Positions 8,306 through 59,610 of a stretch of 64,000 nucleotides of DNA are shown here, in pieces. How positions within the stretch are numbered: position 1 is the stretch's first letter; the number at the start of each line of letters is the position of its first letter. Made by a program: the position numbers and the translations under genes. The notes beneath the pieces were generated by a model. The model worked only from the letters and a program-made list of their open reading frames with translations. It did not search any database and had not been told where the DNA came from. This DNA is from Merdimmobilis hominis (lineage in GTDB: Bacteria; Bacillota; Clostridia; Oscillospirales; Ruminococcaceae): the NCBI RefSeq assembly GCF_900104615.1, contig NZ_LT629939.1, forward strand, positions 221,616-285,615. The letters run 5' to 3'.

Positions 8306-9007
8306 TTACTGGCAGTGGGCCGCAAACTCATCGAAGATGCGCTGGTGCTGTGGACGCAGGCCGGAGAGCAGTTCCGGGTGCCACTGCACCCCAACTACAT
8401 AGCGGTGATCCAACGATTCAATCCCCTCAATCAGGCCGTCTTCACTGCGGGCGGAGACCACTAGCCCTCCGCCAAGGCGGTCAATCCCCTGGTGATGCAA
8501 GGTGTTGACCCGCAGCGCATTTGCCCGCACTGCCCGGTGCAACCGGGTGCCGGACTCCACCCGGACACTGTGGGCGAGGCCGTGAAGTTTCTCCACTTGT
8601 GAGTGATCCAGGGAACCGGGCCGCTGGGTAGGGATATCCTGGAAAAGGCTCCCGCCGAAGACCACATTCATCACCTGAAATCCCCGGCAGATGGCTAAAA
8701 TAGGCTTCTCTTCCCGAAGTGCCAACCGAAAGAGTGGGAGTTCCATAGCGTCCCGCACCGAATCGATGGGGCCGCATTGAGGGATCCGCTCCTCTCCATA
8801 AAGGGCTGGTTCCACATCCGCCCCGCCGGTGAACAAAAACCCGTCGTAGGCCCGGGCGATCCACTCCAGTTCCCCCTGGCTCACCACTGGGGGCAGAACC
8901 ACCACCTGAGCACCCGTCCGGCGCAACGAGGAAAGGTACATATGCTCCATATAACGTTGGTAAAGTTTTCCTCCCAGTGGCAGAACTGCAATAGTTGGCT
9001 GTTTCAT
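8306..9007 (-). CDS. Class I glutamine amidotransferase-like hydrolase (PuuD/peptidase C26 family)
   Basis: A 233-residue member of the gamma-glutamyl-gamma-aminobutyrate hydrolase group. The nucleophile elbow is AICRGFQ (Cys107) and the catalytic histidine-glutamate pair is in VQWHPELL; FTGGADVEP is the oxyanion-side loop. PuuD cleaves gamma-glutamylated GABA in putrescine catabolism, but related proteins act on other gamma-glutamyl amides and no Puu genes are nearby, so the substrate is open. Its leader carries a hairpin element (9121-9155) that recurs in front of another minus-strand gene at 55583. Confidence 0.85.
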   Translation of the reverse strand: MKQPTIAVLPLGGKLYQRYMEHMYLSSLRRTGAQVVVLPPVVSQGELEWIARAYDGFLFTGGADVEPALYGEERIPQCGPIDSVRDAMELPLFRLALREEKPILAICRGFQVMNVVFGGSLFQDIPTQRPGSLDHSQVEKLHGLAHSVRVESGTRLHRAVRANALRVNTLHHQGIDRLGGGLVVSARSEDGLIEGIESLDHRYVVGVQWHPELLSGLRPQHQRIFDEFAAHCQ

Positions 9008-9272: not shown

Positions 9273-10577
<1,305 letters not shown>

Positions 10578-10590
10578 TCAAATCTCGATG

Positions 10591-12027
10591 TTAAACGGTC
10601 AGTTGAACCCGTTCGCCAAGCAAGTCTTTGTGCTCTTCCAGCAGGGGGTCAATACATCCGGTGAGGAACTCCTCCACCTGCTCCCCAGCCCTGCCAATGA
10701 AGTTTTGAGGGTCGAGAATCCCTTCGACTTCCTCCTGGTGAAGGCCGAAGCTGGGGTCGGCGCAGATCCGTTCGATCAGGTCGTTTTTCCCTCCATCCTC
10801 CTTGACCACCCGGGCTGCCTCAATGGAATGCTGCCGCAGCTTTTCGTGGAGTTCCTGCCGGTCTCCACCTTTTTTGACTGCGCTCATCATGATGTTTTCG
10901 GTGGCCATAAAAGGCAGTTCGCTCATCACTCGGGCGCGGATCACCTTGTCGTACACCACAAGGCCGTCGCAGACGTTCAGGAGAATCCCCAGGATGGCGT
11001 CGGTGGCCAGGAACGCTTCCGCCACTGCGATGCGCTTGTTGGCGCTGTCGTCCAAAGTGCGCTCAAACCACTGGGTGCCTGCGGTAAAAGCGGGGTTGAG
11101 GGCGTCTATCATCACATAGCGGGCCAGGGCGGTAATCCGTTCGCACCGCATGGGATTGCGCTTGTAGGGCATGGCGGAGGAACCGATCTGGTGGGCTTCA
11201 AAGGGCTCCTCCATCTCTTTGAAGTTTTGCAGGATCCGCATGTCACCAGAAAATTTCATGGCGCTTTGGGCGATGCCGGAGAGGGTGTTTAAAACCATGG
11301 AATCCACCTTGCGGCTGTAGGTCTGCCCACAGACGGGGATCACCTTGTCAAAGCCCAGTTCCGCGGCGATGGCCTGCTCCATGGCCTTGATTTTGACCGA
11401 ATCCCCGTCAAACAGTTCCACAAAGCTGGCCTGGGTGCCGGTGGTCCCCTTGATGCCCCGCAGGGCCAGGTTGTCTAGGCGGTGCTCCACCTCCTGGTAG
11501 TCCATATAAAGCTCGTTCACCCACAGGGTGGCCCGCTTGCCCACTGTGGTCAGCTGGGCGGGCTGAAGGTGGGTGTAAGCCAGGGCGGGCATATCTTTGT
11601 ATTTTCTGGCAAAAGCCGCCAGCAAGGCGATGACGCTCAAAAGCTTGCGCCGCACCAGCTGGAGGCCCTCCCGCATGATCAGAATATCGGTGTTGTCCCC
11701 CACATAACAGCTGGTGGCCCCCAGGTGGATGATCCCTTTTGCCTCAGGGCATTGGACCCCATAGGCGTAGACATGGCTCATCACATCATGGCGGGTTTCT
11801 TTTTCCCGGGCGATGGCAACTTCATAGTTGATGTCGTCCTTGTGGGCTTCCAACTGGGCGATCTGCTCCTCAGTGATGGGCAGGCCCTGGGCCTTCTCCG
11901 CCTTGGCGAGGGCAATCCACAGCCGGCGCCAGGTCTTGAATTTATTGTCCTCTGAGAAGATATACTGCATCTCCCGGCTGGCGTACCGGGTCTCAAAAGG
12001 GCTGATGTACCGGTCATGTTGTTCCAT
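10591..12027 (-). CDS. purB: Adenylosuccinate lyase
   Basis: A 478-residue member of the fumarase/aspartase superfamily, with the signature SSAMPYKRNPMRCE at about residue 285 and the catalytic-histidine segment THLQPAQ. It removes fumarate both from SAICAR in IMP synthesis and from adenylosuccinate in AMP synthesis, which explains its place between purF and purA. ATG 12027 is preceded by AAGGAAAGGACG. The spacing to purF is 23 bases. Confidence 0.96.
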   Translation of the reverse strand: MEQHDRYISPFETRYASREMQYIFSEDNKFKTWRRLWIALAKAEKAQGLPITEEQIAQLEAHKDDINYEVAIAREKETRHDVMSHVYAYGVQCPEAKGIIHLGATSCYVGDNTDILIMREGLQLVRRKLLSVIALLAAFARKYKDMPALAYTHLQPAQLTTVGKRATLWVNELYMDYQEVEHRLDNLALRGIKGTTGTQASFVELFDGDSVKIKAMEQAIAAELGFDKVIPVCGQTYSRKVDSMVLNTLSGIAQSAMKFSGDMRILQNFKEMEEPFEAHQIGSSAMPYKRNPMRCERITALARYVMIDALNPAFTAGTQWFERTLDDSANKRIAVAEAFLATDAILGILLNVCDGLVVYDKVIRARVMSELPFMATENIMMSAVKKGGDRQELHEKLRQHSIEAARVVKEDGGKNDLIERICADPSFGLHQEEVEGILDPQNFIGRAGEQVEEFLTGCIDPLLEEHKDLLGERVQLTV

Positions 12028-12050: not shown

Positions 12051-13466
12051 TTAAGCTTCAAACCGGCATTTATCCCCCACCGCAGGCGGCGGCACCGGAT
12101 AGTTGCCGGTAAAACAGGCATCGCAGATACTGTGGGTGAAGTGGGGGACCAGGTTGGGCAGGTCCTCCACCCCCAAATATCCCAAGCTGTCCACCCCGAT
12201 GATCCCGGCGATCTCCTCCACCGAGTGGCGGCAGGCGATGAGGTTTTCTCTGGAATCCACGTCCACCCCAAAATAGCAGGGATAGAGGAAGGGCGGCGAG
12301 GAGAGGCGCAGGTGGATCTCCTTGGCCCCGGCATCCCGCAGCAGTTTGACAATCTGCCGGCTGGTAGTTCCCCGGACAATGGAGTCGTCGATAAGCACCA
12401 CACGCTTCCCTTGGACGGTGCTGGCCATGGGGTTGAGCTTGATCCGCACCGCATTTTCCCGCTGTTTCTGCCCTGGGGCGATGAAAGTGCGGCCGATGTA
12501 CCGGTTTTTCACAAACCCGACCCCATAGGGGATGCCGCTCTCCTGGGAATACCCCAATGCGGCGTCCAGCCCGGAATCGGGGACGCCCACCACCACATCA
12601 GCGCGGACAGGGTGCCGCCGGGCCAGCAACACCCCCGCCCTTAAACGGGCCTCATGGACACTGCACCCGTCGATGACCGAATCCGGCCGGGCAAAATAGA
12701 TGTATTCAAAAATGCACTGGGAACCCCGTCTGCCGCAGTGGGATTTGTGACTGGTAATCCCCTCCTGGCTGGCGACTACGATCTCACCGGGTTCAATGTC
12801 CCGGACAAAGACAGCGCCCACCGCATCCAGGGCACAGCTCTCGCTGGCGAAGAGAACGCTCTCCCCCAGCCGGCCCATGCAGAGGGGGCGGAACCCCATA
12901 GGGTCCCGGGCGGCAATCAGCTTGCGGGGGCTGGTGATCACCAGGGAATAGGCCCCAGACAGCCGGTGCATGGCGGCCTCCACCGCCGCTTCGATGCTGG
13001 GCGCGGTCAGGCGGGCCCGGGTGATGGCGTGGGCGATGACCTCTGTGTCCGAGGTGCCGTAGAAAATGTCCCCTTGAAGCTCAAACTCCTCCCGCAGCTC
13101 GGTGGCGTTGGTCAGGTTGCCGTTGTGGGCCAGAGCCATATTCCCCTTGCGATGGCGGATGAGCAGCGGCTGGGCATTTTCCAGCACCTGACTGCCTGTG
13201 GTGGCATAACGGCAATGACCAATGGCAATCTGCCCCCGCTTCATCGACTTCAGCAGGGATGGTTGGAACACCTCACCAACCAGGCCCAAATTCTTGTAAC
13301 AGGAGATCACCCCCCGGTCGTTGACCGCGATTCCGCAGCTCTCCTGGCCCCGGTGCTGCAAGGCATAGAGGCCGTGGTAACTGGCCGAGACCACATCCAC
13401 CCCGTCAGGGCTGTAGATCCCGAATACTCCGCACTCCTCATGGAGTTCCGACTGCCACTCCATCAT
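12051..13466 (-). CDS. purF: Amidophosphoribosyltransferase (iron-sulfur type)
   Basis: A 471-residue enzyme that makes phosphoribosylamine from PRPP and glutamine, the committed purine step. The glutaminase Cys12 follows an 11-residue propeptide (HEECGVFGIY); the PRPP loop is RVVLIDDSIVRGTT. Cysteines at GSQCIFEY, LYPCYFGVD and the C-terminal SICDACF pair match the 4Fe-4S ligands of the Bacillus-type enzyme, whose cluster makes it oxygen sensitive. Its ATG overlaps the purC stop as TAATG, so translation is coupled. Confidence 0.97.
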   Translation of the reverse strand: MMEWQSELHEECGVFGIYSPDGVDVVSASYHGLYALQHRGQESCGIAVNDRGVISCYKNLGLVGEVFQPSLLKSMKRGQIAIGHCRYATTGSQVLENAQPLLIRHRKGNMALAHNGNLTNATELREEFELQGDIFYGTSDTEVIAHAITRARLTAPSIEAAVEAAMHRLSGAYSLVITSPRKLIAARDPMGFRPLCMGRLGESVLFASESCALDAVGAVFVRDIEPGEIVVASQEGITSHKSHCGRRGSQCIFEYIYFARPDSVIDGCSVHEARLRAGVLLARRHPVRADVVVGVPDSGLDAALGYSQESGIPYGVGFVKNRYIGRTFIAPGQKQRENAVRIKLNPMASTVQGKRVVLIDDSIVRGTTSRQIVKLLRDAGAKEIHLRLSSPPFLYPCYFGVDVDSRENLIACRHSVEEIAGIIGVDSLGYLGVEDLPNLVPHFTHSICDACFTGNYPVPPPAVGDKCRFEA

Positions 13467-14176
13467 TATTCCCCCATCAGGCGCTTCATAACCTCTTGGT
13501 ATGCGCCTTCCGCATTGCCCAAATCCCGGCGGAACCGGTCTTTATCCAGTTTTTCCCCTGTTGTGCTGTCCCAAAAGCGGCAGGTGTCGGGGCTGATCTC
13601 ATCGGCCAGGATCACGGCTCCATCGGGAGTGCGGCCAAATTCCAGCTTAAAATCGATGAGGTCGATATCCGCTTCCTTCAAATACCCCCGCAGGATGTCA
13701 TTGATCTGAAGGGCATAGGATTGGATTGCCTTCATCTCCTCCGGGGTAGCCAATCCCATGGCATAGACATGGGTCTCGTTGATCATAGGGTCGCCCAGTT
13801 GGTCGTTTTTATAACTGTACTCCAGCACGGTGGAAGCCATAGGGGTCCCTTCGGGAAGGCCCATCCGCTTGGCCAGGCCACCGGCGGCGATATTGCGCAC
13901 TACCACCTCCACCGGGATGATCTCCACTTTTTTCACCAAGGTCTCCCGGTCGGAGAGCTGCTGCACATAGTGGGTCGGAATGCCCTTGGCCTCCAGCATC
14001 TGCATCAAGAAGTTGGTCACCTTGTTGTTGATGACCCCTTTGCCTTGGATCGTCCCTTTTTTCAGGCCGTTGAAGGCGGTGGCATCGTCTTTGTACTGCA
14101 CCAGATAGAGATTCTCATCATCGGTTTTGAACACTTTTTTGGCTTTGCCCTCGTAGAGCTGCTCCCGTTTTTCCAT
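13466..14176 (-). CDS. purC: Phosphoribosylaminoimidazole-succinocarboxamide (SAICAR) synthase
   Basis: A 236-residue product, normal for PurC. The ATP-binding N-terminus [10 protein letters not shown] and the signature [20 protein letters not shown] and LEFGR are present. It ligates aspartate to CAIR with ATP. ATG 14176 is chosen because AGGGGGT stands 8 bases before it; an in-frame start at 14197 overlaps the leader hairpin. It is the first structural gene of the operon. Only 24 bases separate the leader terminator from its ATG, too few for a separate promoter, so expression requires read-through of that hairpin. Confidence 0.96.
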
Positions 14177-14200
14177 TGCAAAGTACCCCCTGTTCAAAAT

Positions 14201-14232
14201 GAAAAGGGCCGAGGTGCAGTTGCACCTCGGCC
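14201..14232 (-). terminator. Terminator/attenuator hairpin in the purC leader
   Basis: A perfect 26-base inverted repeat (14207-14232, GGCCGAGGTGC stem with a 4-base loop) is followed on the minus strand by CTTTTCATTTT. It begins 7 bases after the stop of the leader ORF and ends about 25 bases before the purC start. Since no promoter fits in between, it should act as an attenuator for the purine operon. Confidence 0.75.
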
Positions 14233-14239
14233 TTGTTTT

Positions 14240-14311
14240 TTAGAAATCTGCTTTTGGGGTATACGGGGTCCATGCGATTTTGCGCAGCGCATATTTGCAG
14301 CACTTTTGCAT
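14240..14311 (-). CDS. Leader ORF of 23 codons in front of purC
   Basis: ATG 14311 is preceded by AAGAAGGAGG with a 9-base gap, as strong a ribosome-binding site as any in the window. The product begins MQKCCKYALRKIAW and ends TPYTPKADF: a short cationic peptide with a Cys-Cys pair and a proline-rich end. It has no run of one amino acid, so it is not a classical amino-acid attenuator. The stop codon is 7 bases from the terminator hairpin, so a ribosome finishing or pausing there would cover the stem. I do not recognise the peptide family; function is inferred only from position. Confidence 0.55.
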   Translation of the reverse strand: MQKCCKYALRKIAWTPYTPKADF

Positions 14312-14381
14312 AAAGCACAACCTCCTTCTTGCTGTATCTCCCAAAAAGCCGATCCAAACGCCCGCTTGGATCACAGGGTTT

Positions 14382-14410
14382 ATTTTAGTGGATATGGGGC
14401 AAGAAATCAA
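14382..14410 (-). promoter_or_regulatory. Promoter of the purine operon leader
   Basis: On the minus strand TTGATT (14410-14405), 17-base spacer and TAAAAT (14387-14382). The transcript would start near 14376, pass a GATCCAA/TTGGATC hairpin (14350-14371), then the leader ORF. I looked for a purine riboswitch here and found none. Confidence 0.65.

Positions 14411-59534: not shown

Positions 59535-59610
<76 letters not shown>

Follow-up and report, generated by a model that had tools for sequence, protein, structure and literature searches.

Known controls of de novo purine synthesis are PurR-type repressors and riboswitches, and in many Bacillota the purine (RF00167) and ZTP (RF01750) riboswitches control purine genes. 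In the amino-acid attenuators of trp and his, a leader ORF is combined with a terminator, and in the E. coli pyrE attenuator, as at the U-rich pauses of the pyr attenuators, it is UTP that is sensed. For the sites at which RNA polymerase pauses, Larson in 2014 reportedly gave a fuller consensus, G-11 G-10 T-3 G-2.

The papers cited from here on were available in part, and statements drawn from them refer to the available portions. Purine synthesis is described there as controlled by riboswitches and PurR (PMC13328217). When a ribosome in E. coli occupies a stop codon less than about 27 nt from a hairpin, termination is repressed, and in pyrBI this is enforced by polymerase pausing (PMC4824070). 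The pause signal of RNA polymerase is G-10 Y-1 G+1 (PMC10268239, PMC12288461); polymerase can leave an elemental pause only with the next NTP, and bypass declines as the supply of that NTP falls (PMC6336406). In the tlrB leader, pausing gives time for translation of the leader peptide (PMC12288461). In many low-GC Gram-positives, polymerase moves faster than the ribosomes (PMC13323073), and we extended this to the group studied here by inference. We found no published purine attenuator of the kind described below in the open literature searched, most of the subscription literature being outside that scope, and term searches in the available portions of three reviews (PMC12288461, PMC13328217, PMC11550727) and a motif survey (PMC6429828) found none.

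In the 64,000-nucleotide stretch of DNA analyzed here (the window), a leader precedes purC. We lean modestly to the reading that this leader, like those found before purE, is an attenuator that would act through transcription-translation coupling, with low ATP or GTP prolonging polymerase pauses, and not through its peptide. The original prediction had described a promoter, a 23-codon ORF with a strong Shine-Dalgarno site, a stop codon 7 nt before a terminator, and then purC. Table 1 shows that all of these elements were found in the sequence; they lie on the minus strand, which the prediction had omitted. A further promoter match was found upstream of the leader at 14491-14463 (minus strand), and none on that strand at the scan threshold between 14382 and purC, in agreement with the claim that no second promoter fits. 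Because the 7 kb scanned held no more promoter matches than expected by chance (4 against 2.8, sd 1.8), our promoter call rests on conservation. The leader, terminator included, was more stable than shuffles (z -3.33).

Table 1. Leader elements and genes of the purC operon, numbered from the first nucleotide of the window
Feature	Position	Strand	Basis or remark
Promoter TTGATT-17-TAAAAT	14382..14410 (TTGATT 14410-14405, TAAAAT 14387-14382)	-	Sequence scan; same in L061
5' leader hairpin GATCCAAGC-GGGC-GTTTGGATC	14350..14373	-	Window sequence and fold
Shine-Dalgarno AAGGAGG of leader ORF	14321..14327	-	Read in sequence
Leader ORF, 23 codons and stop, peptide MQKCCKYALRKIAWTPYTPKADF	14240..14311	-	Sequence; counterpart in L061 from 2827
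Intrinsic terminator hairpin	14207..14232	-	11 pairs, 9 of them G-C, loop 4; 7 nt after ORF stop
Terminator tail CTTTTCATTTT, short U tract	14196..14206	-	Read in sequence
Two overlapping pause-like words, GG-N6-TGC then A, in hairpin 5' arm and loop	14215..14232	-	Motif scan; GG from 14232, 3' end 14222; GG from 14226, 3' end 14216
purC	13466..14176, ATG at 14176	-	Name presumed
purF	12051..13466	-	Name presumed; order kept in L061
purB	10591..12027	-	Name presumed; kept in L061
purA	9273..10562	-	Name presumed

The genes downstream of the leader, which we take to be purC, purF, purB and purA, are followed on the same strand by a gene at 8306-9007 (minus), presumably for a class I glutamine amidotransferase-like protein, which is possibly part of the operon. 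Elsewhere in the genome lies a second PurC-like gene (C3:2408424-2409044, 36% identical). A strong terminator-like hairpin with a TTTTTAT tail was also seen in the window at 17834-17807 (minus).

The arrangement was kept before purC in a member of the same family, Hydrogenoanaerobacterium saccharovorans An564 (NZ_JACSNR010000006.1, locus L061 of genome G061), whose PurC is 86% identical to that of the window and which has the order purC-purF-purB in common with it. Its leader carries TTGATT-17-TAAAAT at the same place and an ORF, MSAGNCYVLSRIAWTQCLIRPVSFTNQKRRKAAF, that stops 7 nt before the hairpin. Across the region of the stop codon and hairpin, 49 of 58 columns were identical. The two leader ORFs have IAWT and a final Phe in common, and their lengths differ by 11 residues. 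As predicted for the window peptide, neither of the two holds a run of one amino acid, and no run of regulatory codons was found in these two peptides or, by eye, in the 92 purE leader peptides described below.

The conservation check also extended to other genera, where the layout recurs before purE. A two-sequence RNA model of the leader 3' end (R1), which matched 159 of 396 genomes at E<=0.5, was used only as a pointer to these purE leaders; a few of its matches among the 14 loci listed (L143-L156) lay before pur genes, the others ending ordinary genes or resembling plain terminators. The first purE set was reduced from 271 loci to 223 with purE, 217 with a start codon and at least 250 nt upstream, and 207 that were distinct. 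Of these 207 leaders, 135 have a terminator-like hairpin no more than 170 nt from purE, and 72 have none. We defined the layout as an ORF of 12 to 80 codons, preceded by a Shine-Dalgarno site, whose end lies between -6 and +20 nt relative to the stem. It was found in 92 of the 135 terminator-bearing leaders, leaving 43 without it, compared with a mean of 5.4 in 100 shuffles (sd 2.5, maximum 13); the leaders are related by descent, and the counts are not independent events.

In these 92 leaders the upstream ORF (uORF) stopped a median of 6 nt from the stem. It was 18 to 72 codons long, began with ATG in 71, GTG in 13 and TTG in 8, and was preceded by AGGAG or GGAGG in 63. A promoter match of at least 9 of 12 positions stood before it in 51 of the 77 non-redundant leaders (shuffles 14.6, sd 3.2). 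In one relative, a ZTP riboswitch was seen before purE-purC (L037, 834-922), and the uORF layout was not detected there. Different lineages may use different purine controls.

The peptides themselves were mostly unrelated. The 92 purE and 2 purC leader peptides fell into 74 clusters of 94, and no conserved C-terminal motif, a feature of arrest peptides, was found among them. Relative to shuffle expectation, they held more Cys (1.42 times), Tyr (1.49), Ser (1.30) and Gly (1.28) and less Leu (0.66), Pro (0.62) and Trp (0.36). In a group of four similar leaders, a single inserted nucleotide near the end of one ORF changes the frame, and the stop still lies beside the hairpin. Loss of the frame with the hairpin kept, named by the original prediction as evidence against it, was thus seen only in a weak sense: a short, translated-looking frame survives beside the hairpin, which suggests that position matters rather than sequence. 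Since peptides are mostly unrelated between genera, in the leaders compared it is the stop-to-hairpin spacing that is conserved rather than the peptide. A search with the window peptide in 197 genomes of the family, which gave matches in 38 at E<=1 and, of 30 loci kept, found purC only at the query's own, is no evidence either way because it missed G061. By eye, a small hairpin, GTGTAYCTGYRTACAY, was seen in the uORFs of three close relatives, L088, L089 and L096, one of which shows a C-G to T-A change on each side.

These results bear on the suggestion that the leader conceals a small protein gene. The IAWT and final Phe common to the two purC leader peptides would fit a functional small protein or a ligand-sensing arrest peptide, but the diversity of the peptides between most genera, the tolerated frame change and the lack of any Pfam or NCBIfam match to the window peptide make such a product hardly credible. 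The original prediction had also left open whether an attenuator here would be controlled by the peptide or by the ribosome; conservation of the layout before both purC and purE favors the ribosome, and the same peptide diversity and frame change speak against the peptide.

An undescribed riboswitch that overlaps the ORF could instead switch the terminator. The 5' UTR and uORF together folded a little more stably than their shuffled counterparts (mean z -1.05; 16 of 92 below -2 and 0 above 2), and the Shine-Dalgarno site and start codon were slightly more paired (mean +0.05, 52 of 77 leaders), a small effect. However, at gathering score the sole Rfam match in the whole window was a tRNA at 59535, in keeping with the remark that no purine riboswitch was seen, and 20 leader loci matched no family, RF00167 included. 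The 5' arm of the terminator had no preferred upstream partner that could serve as an antiterminator (mean duplex z -0.05 over 92 leaders, 6 below -2), and no common shape was seen among the folds listed for the 60 of 77 leaders folded. We therefore consider a riboswitch of this type very unlikely.

The leaders also contain recurrent words that the original prediction had not mentioned. Counting of k-mers in the 77 non-redundant leaders (of 92) brought out the words GTGYA and GGGAT, which were not confined to a single frame, and when aligned the words read GGGATAAGTGYANCC. After GG-N6-TGY, the next base was A in 62, G in 28, C in 11 and T in 6, compared with shuffle means of 7.4, 8.2, 6.1 and 8.7; the word ending in T, the UTP type, was thus not enriched in the purE leaders. 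With A as the next base, the spacing between GG and TGY was N4 in 11, N5 in 40, N6 in 62, N7 in 24 and N8 in 6, so that N6 was best, G runs being counted at more than one spacing. Among all TGY in the leaders, GG stood at -11/-10 in 62 of 184 followed by A, 28 of 142 by G, 11 of 91 by C and 6 of 107 by T (chi-square p 2.4e-8; A over G, p 0.006; sites treated as independent). The G at -10, the Y at -1 and the purine at +1 of these putative pause words match the RNA polymerase pause signal. The usual consensus itself places G at +1, and it is thus the excess of A alone that speaks for ATP.

The density of GG-N6-TGYA was 6.07 per kb in the leaders, 0.91 in purE coding sequence and 0.2 on the other strand of the leaders. 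In 864 kb of the window genome, GG-N6-TGY followed by A, G, C and T occurred at 0.53, 0.65, 1.08 and 0.90 per kb, the pyrimidines leading. Of 78 GG-N6-TGYA words, 62 lay in the interval from 60 nt upstream of the hairpin to 20 nt within it. The words occupied more than one frame (27, 14 and 13), with a lean to one (27 of 54). Between the uORF and the hairpin loop, 54 of the 77 purE leaders have a GG-N6-TGY-purine word and 23 do not; inside the hairpin it was found in 17 of 77, compared with 13 of 554 hairpins of the window genome. In first-set leaders with a terminator and no detected uORF, the A word was also in excess over shuffles (17 against 3.4), as was the C word (6 against 2.2), and in those with no terminator the A word was found 10 times against 4.4. 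Since the detector is strict and missed L144, where uORF and terminator are both visible by eye, it may have overlooked a uORF in these motif-bearing leaders, or the motif and the uORF may to some extent occur separately.

In the purC leader of the window, GG-N6-TGY-purine occurs twice, both times only inside the hairpin, and one other GG-N6-TGY word, over the Shine-Dalgarno site, is followed by T. The hairpin of L061 carries the same two words, and the sole pause-type word in its leader ORF is GG-N6-TGT then C. The pause code is thus weak in the window copy. By comparison, the purE locus of the window genome (C3:2462618-2463703), far from purC, has a uORF-terminator layout of its own with the stop 11 nt from the stem, a 37-residue peptide unrelated to that of purC, and three GG-N6-TGY-purine words, one of them in the hairpin.

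The recurrence of GGGATAAGTGYANCC could also reflect a protein or small RNA that binds the repeats in nascent RNA or DNA and prevents or promotes termination, with the uORF only protecting or timing the leader. The motif is richer in information than a bare pause signal, with extra preferences (-9G, -8A, -7T, -4G, +3C and +4C) that lie outside the pause consensus, and some leaders hold several copies. Such a factor would leave the tight stop-to-hairpin spacing and the purine at +1 unexplained, and the core positions of the motif coincide with the pause consensus; we regard it as improbable.

Because the motif was discovered and then counted in the first set, only a second set serves as a fresh test, and it comprises 12 leaders with 14 words. 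From 182 genomes of the order with purE, we took another 85 loci, none of them belonging to the family of the window (25 from a search and 60 picked from the matches listed); 4 leaders already seen were dropped, leaving 81. We had settled on the layout and word patterns before reading this set. A terminator was found in 33 of the 81 leaders and the uORF layout in 12 of the 33, compared with a shuffle mean of 1.1 and maximum of 4. In these 12, the next base was A in 5, G in 8, C in 0 and T in 1 (shuffle means 0.8-1.1), so that, unlike in the first set, G exceeded A. No clear purine excess was seen in the 21 leaders with a terminator and no uORF (A 2, G 0) or in the 48 with no terminator (A 4, G 5), the latter having an excess of C (7 against 2.4).

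We also considered how specific the layout is. In 864 kb, one third of the window genome, chosen to include both pur loci, there were 554 terminator-like hairpins, 23 of them with an adjoining short ORF and an ORF downstream. In 16 of the 23 the short ORF was the tail of a frame of more than 100 codons. The 7 left (at most 100 open codons) were purE, purC, a gene that we take to be ribosomal S21-like, a possible real small gene (L339) and three noise-like cases. The uORF-terminator layout is not general in the 864 kb scanned. As a control, we took 30 pyrB loci from 115 genomes with a match. Of the 22 that were readable, 6 carried a terminator, with a uORF beside it in 1; the pause motif occurred once near terminators (next base A), and 4 times with A, 0 with G, 0 with C and 2 with T in 5,060 nt of the -250 to -20 regions.

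The same ribosome-at-stop device might respond to another signal, such as translation or growth rate (charged tRNA, ppGpp or the GTP of translation), with the pauses merely allowing the ribosome to catch up. This would explain the layout and spacing equally well, and a purine (G) at +1 belongs to the general pause consensus (PMC10268239, PMC12288461). On the other hand, first-set words have A as the next base more often than G (62 to 28, p 0.006; in the second set 5 to 8, with no such excess), and the layout is rare upstream of pyrB (1 of 22). Both points speak against a general signal, and we consider this alternative possible though doubtful.

In the mechanism that we propose for a coupled, purine-sensing attenuator, RNA polymerase would by default run ahead of the ribosome, the hairpin would fold, and transcription would end before purC or purE. 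When ATP or GTP is scarce, polymerase would dwell at GG-N6-TGY sites that have a purine as the next base. The ribosome on the leader ORF would then catch up and reach the stop codon, where it would cover the base of the stem, so that the terminator could not fold and the pur genes would be transcribed. In the window copy, even pauses at the words in the hairpin would delay polymerase immediately ahead of synthesis of the 3' arm. The pur genes would come on when purine NTP is low, a sign of regulation that fits feedback control.

The layout, the spacing, the indifference to peptide sequence and the purine at +1 of the pause words are supported by sequence statistics. We infer translation of the ORF, pausing at the words, a dwell that depends on ATP or GTP, and the direction of regulation. 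For the window copy, a coupled attenuator is well supported by the sequence comparison, purine sensing less so. We see the evidence as evenly poised on whether a family of such attenuators exists across the order, in which the polymerase itself would be the ATP and GTP sensor, through pauses poised at A or G, and an ORF of arbitrary sequence the actuator.

Compared with known systems, the proposed attenuator most resembles E. coli pyrBI (PMC4824070, available portion) and pyrE, in which a leader ORF likewise runs up to or through an intrinsic terminator, a ribosome blocks the hairpin during pausing and a nucleotide end product is sensed (both proposed here), and the peptide sequence is unimportant. 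The stop codon lies just before the hairpin as in pyrE, not inside it as in pyrBI. The present leaders differ in serving purine genes, in belonging to Bacillota, in having words of TGY followed by a purine rather than U-rich runs, and in that their sensing is presumed. In the available account of the Salmonella mgtM leader of mgtCBR (PMC3641672), the peptide is also non-conserved, polymerase is proposed to wait for ATP at positions that are conserved, and coupling decides the outcome. There, however, high ATP turns mgtC on by means of alternative stem-loops and possibly Rho, whereas the present genes would be turned on by low purine NTP, and our search revealed no alternative stem. Bacillus tlrB (PMC12288461) and vmlR (PMC9226507) likewise use pausing in leader control in Bacillota, but in the portions available their pauses are NusG-dependent, occur at TTNTTT and serve an antibiotic response.

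Unlike the trp and his attenuators, these leaders have no single-codon run and no detectable antiterminator pairing, and in contrast to genes under RF00167 or RF01750, neither riboswitch was matched in the window or at 20 leader loci. If the proposal is true, a purine gauge based on polymerase pausing would parallel the classic UTP-sensing pyr attenuators. Coupled attenuation would then extend to Bacillota, in many species of which polymerase reportedly runs ahead of the ribosome, and the pause sites suggest how this could occur. The proposal yields a simple base-identity code, TGY and then a purine, in which the +1 base of the pause site would be readable as a regulatory code.
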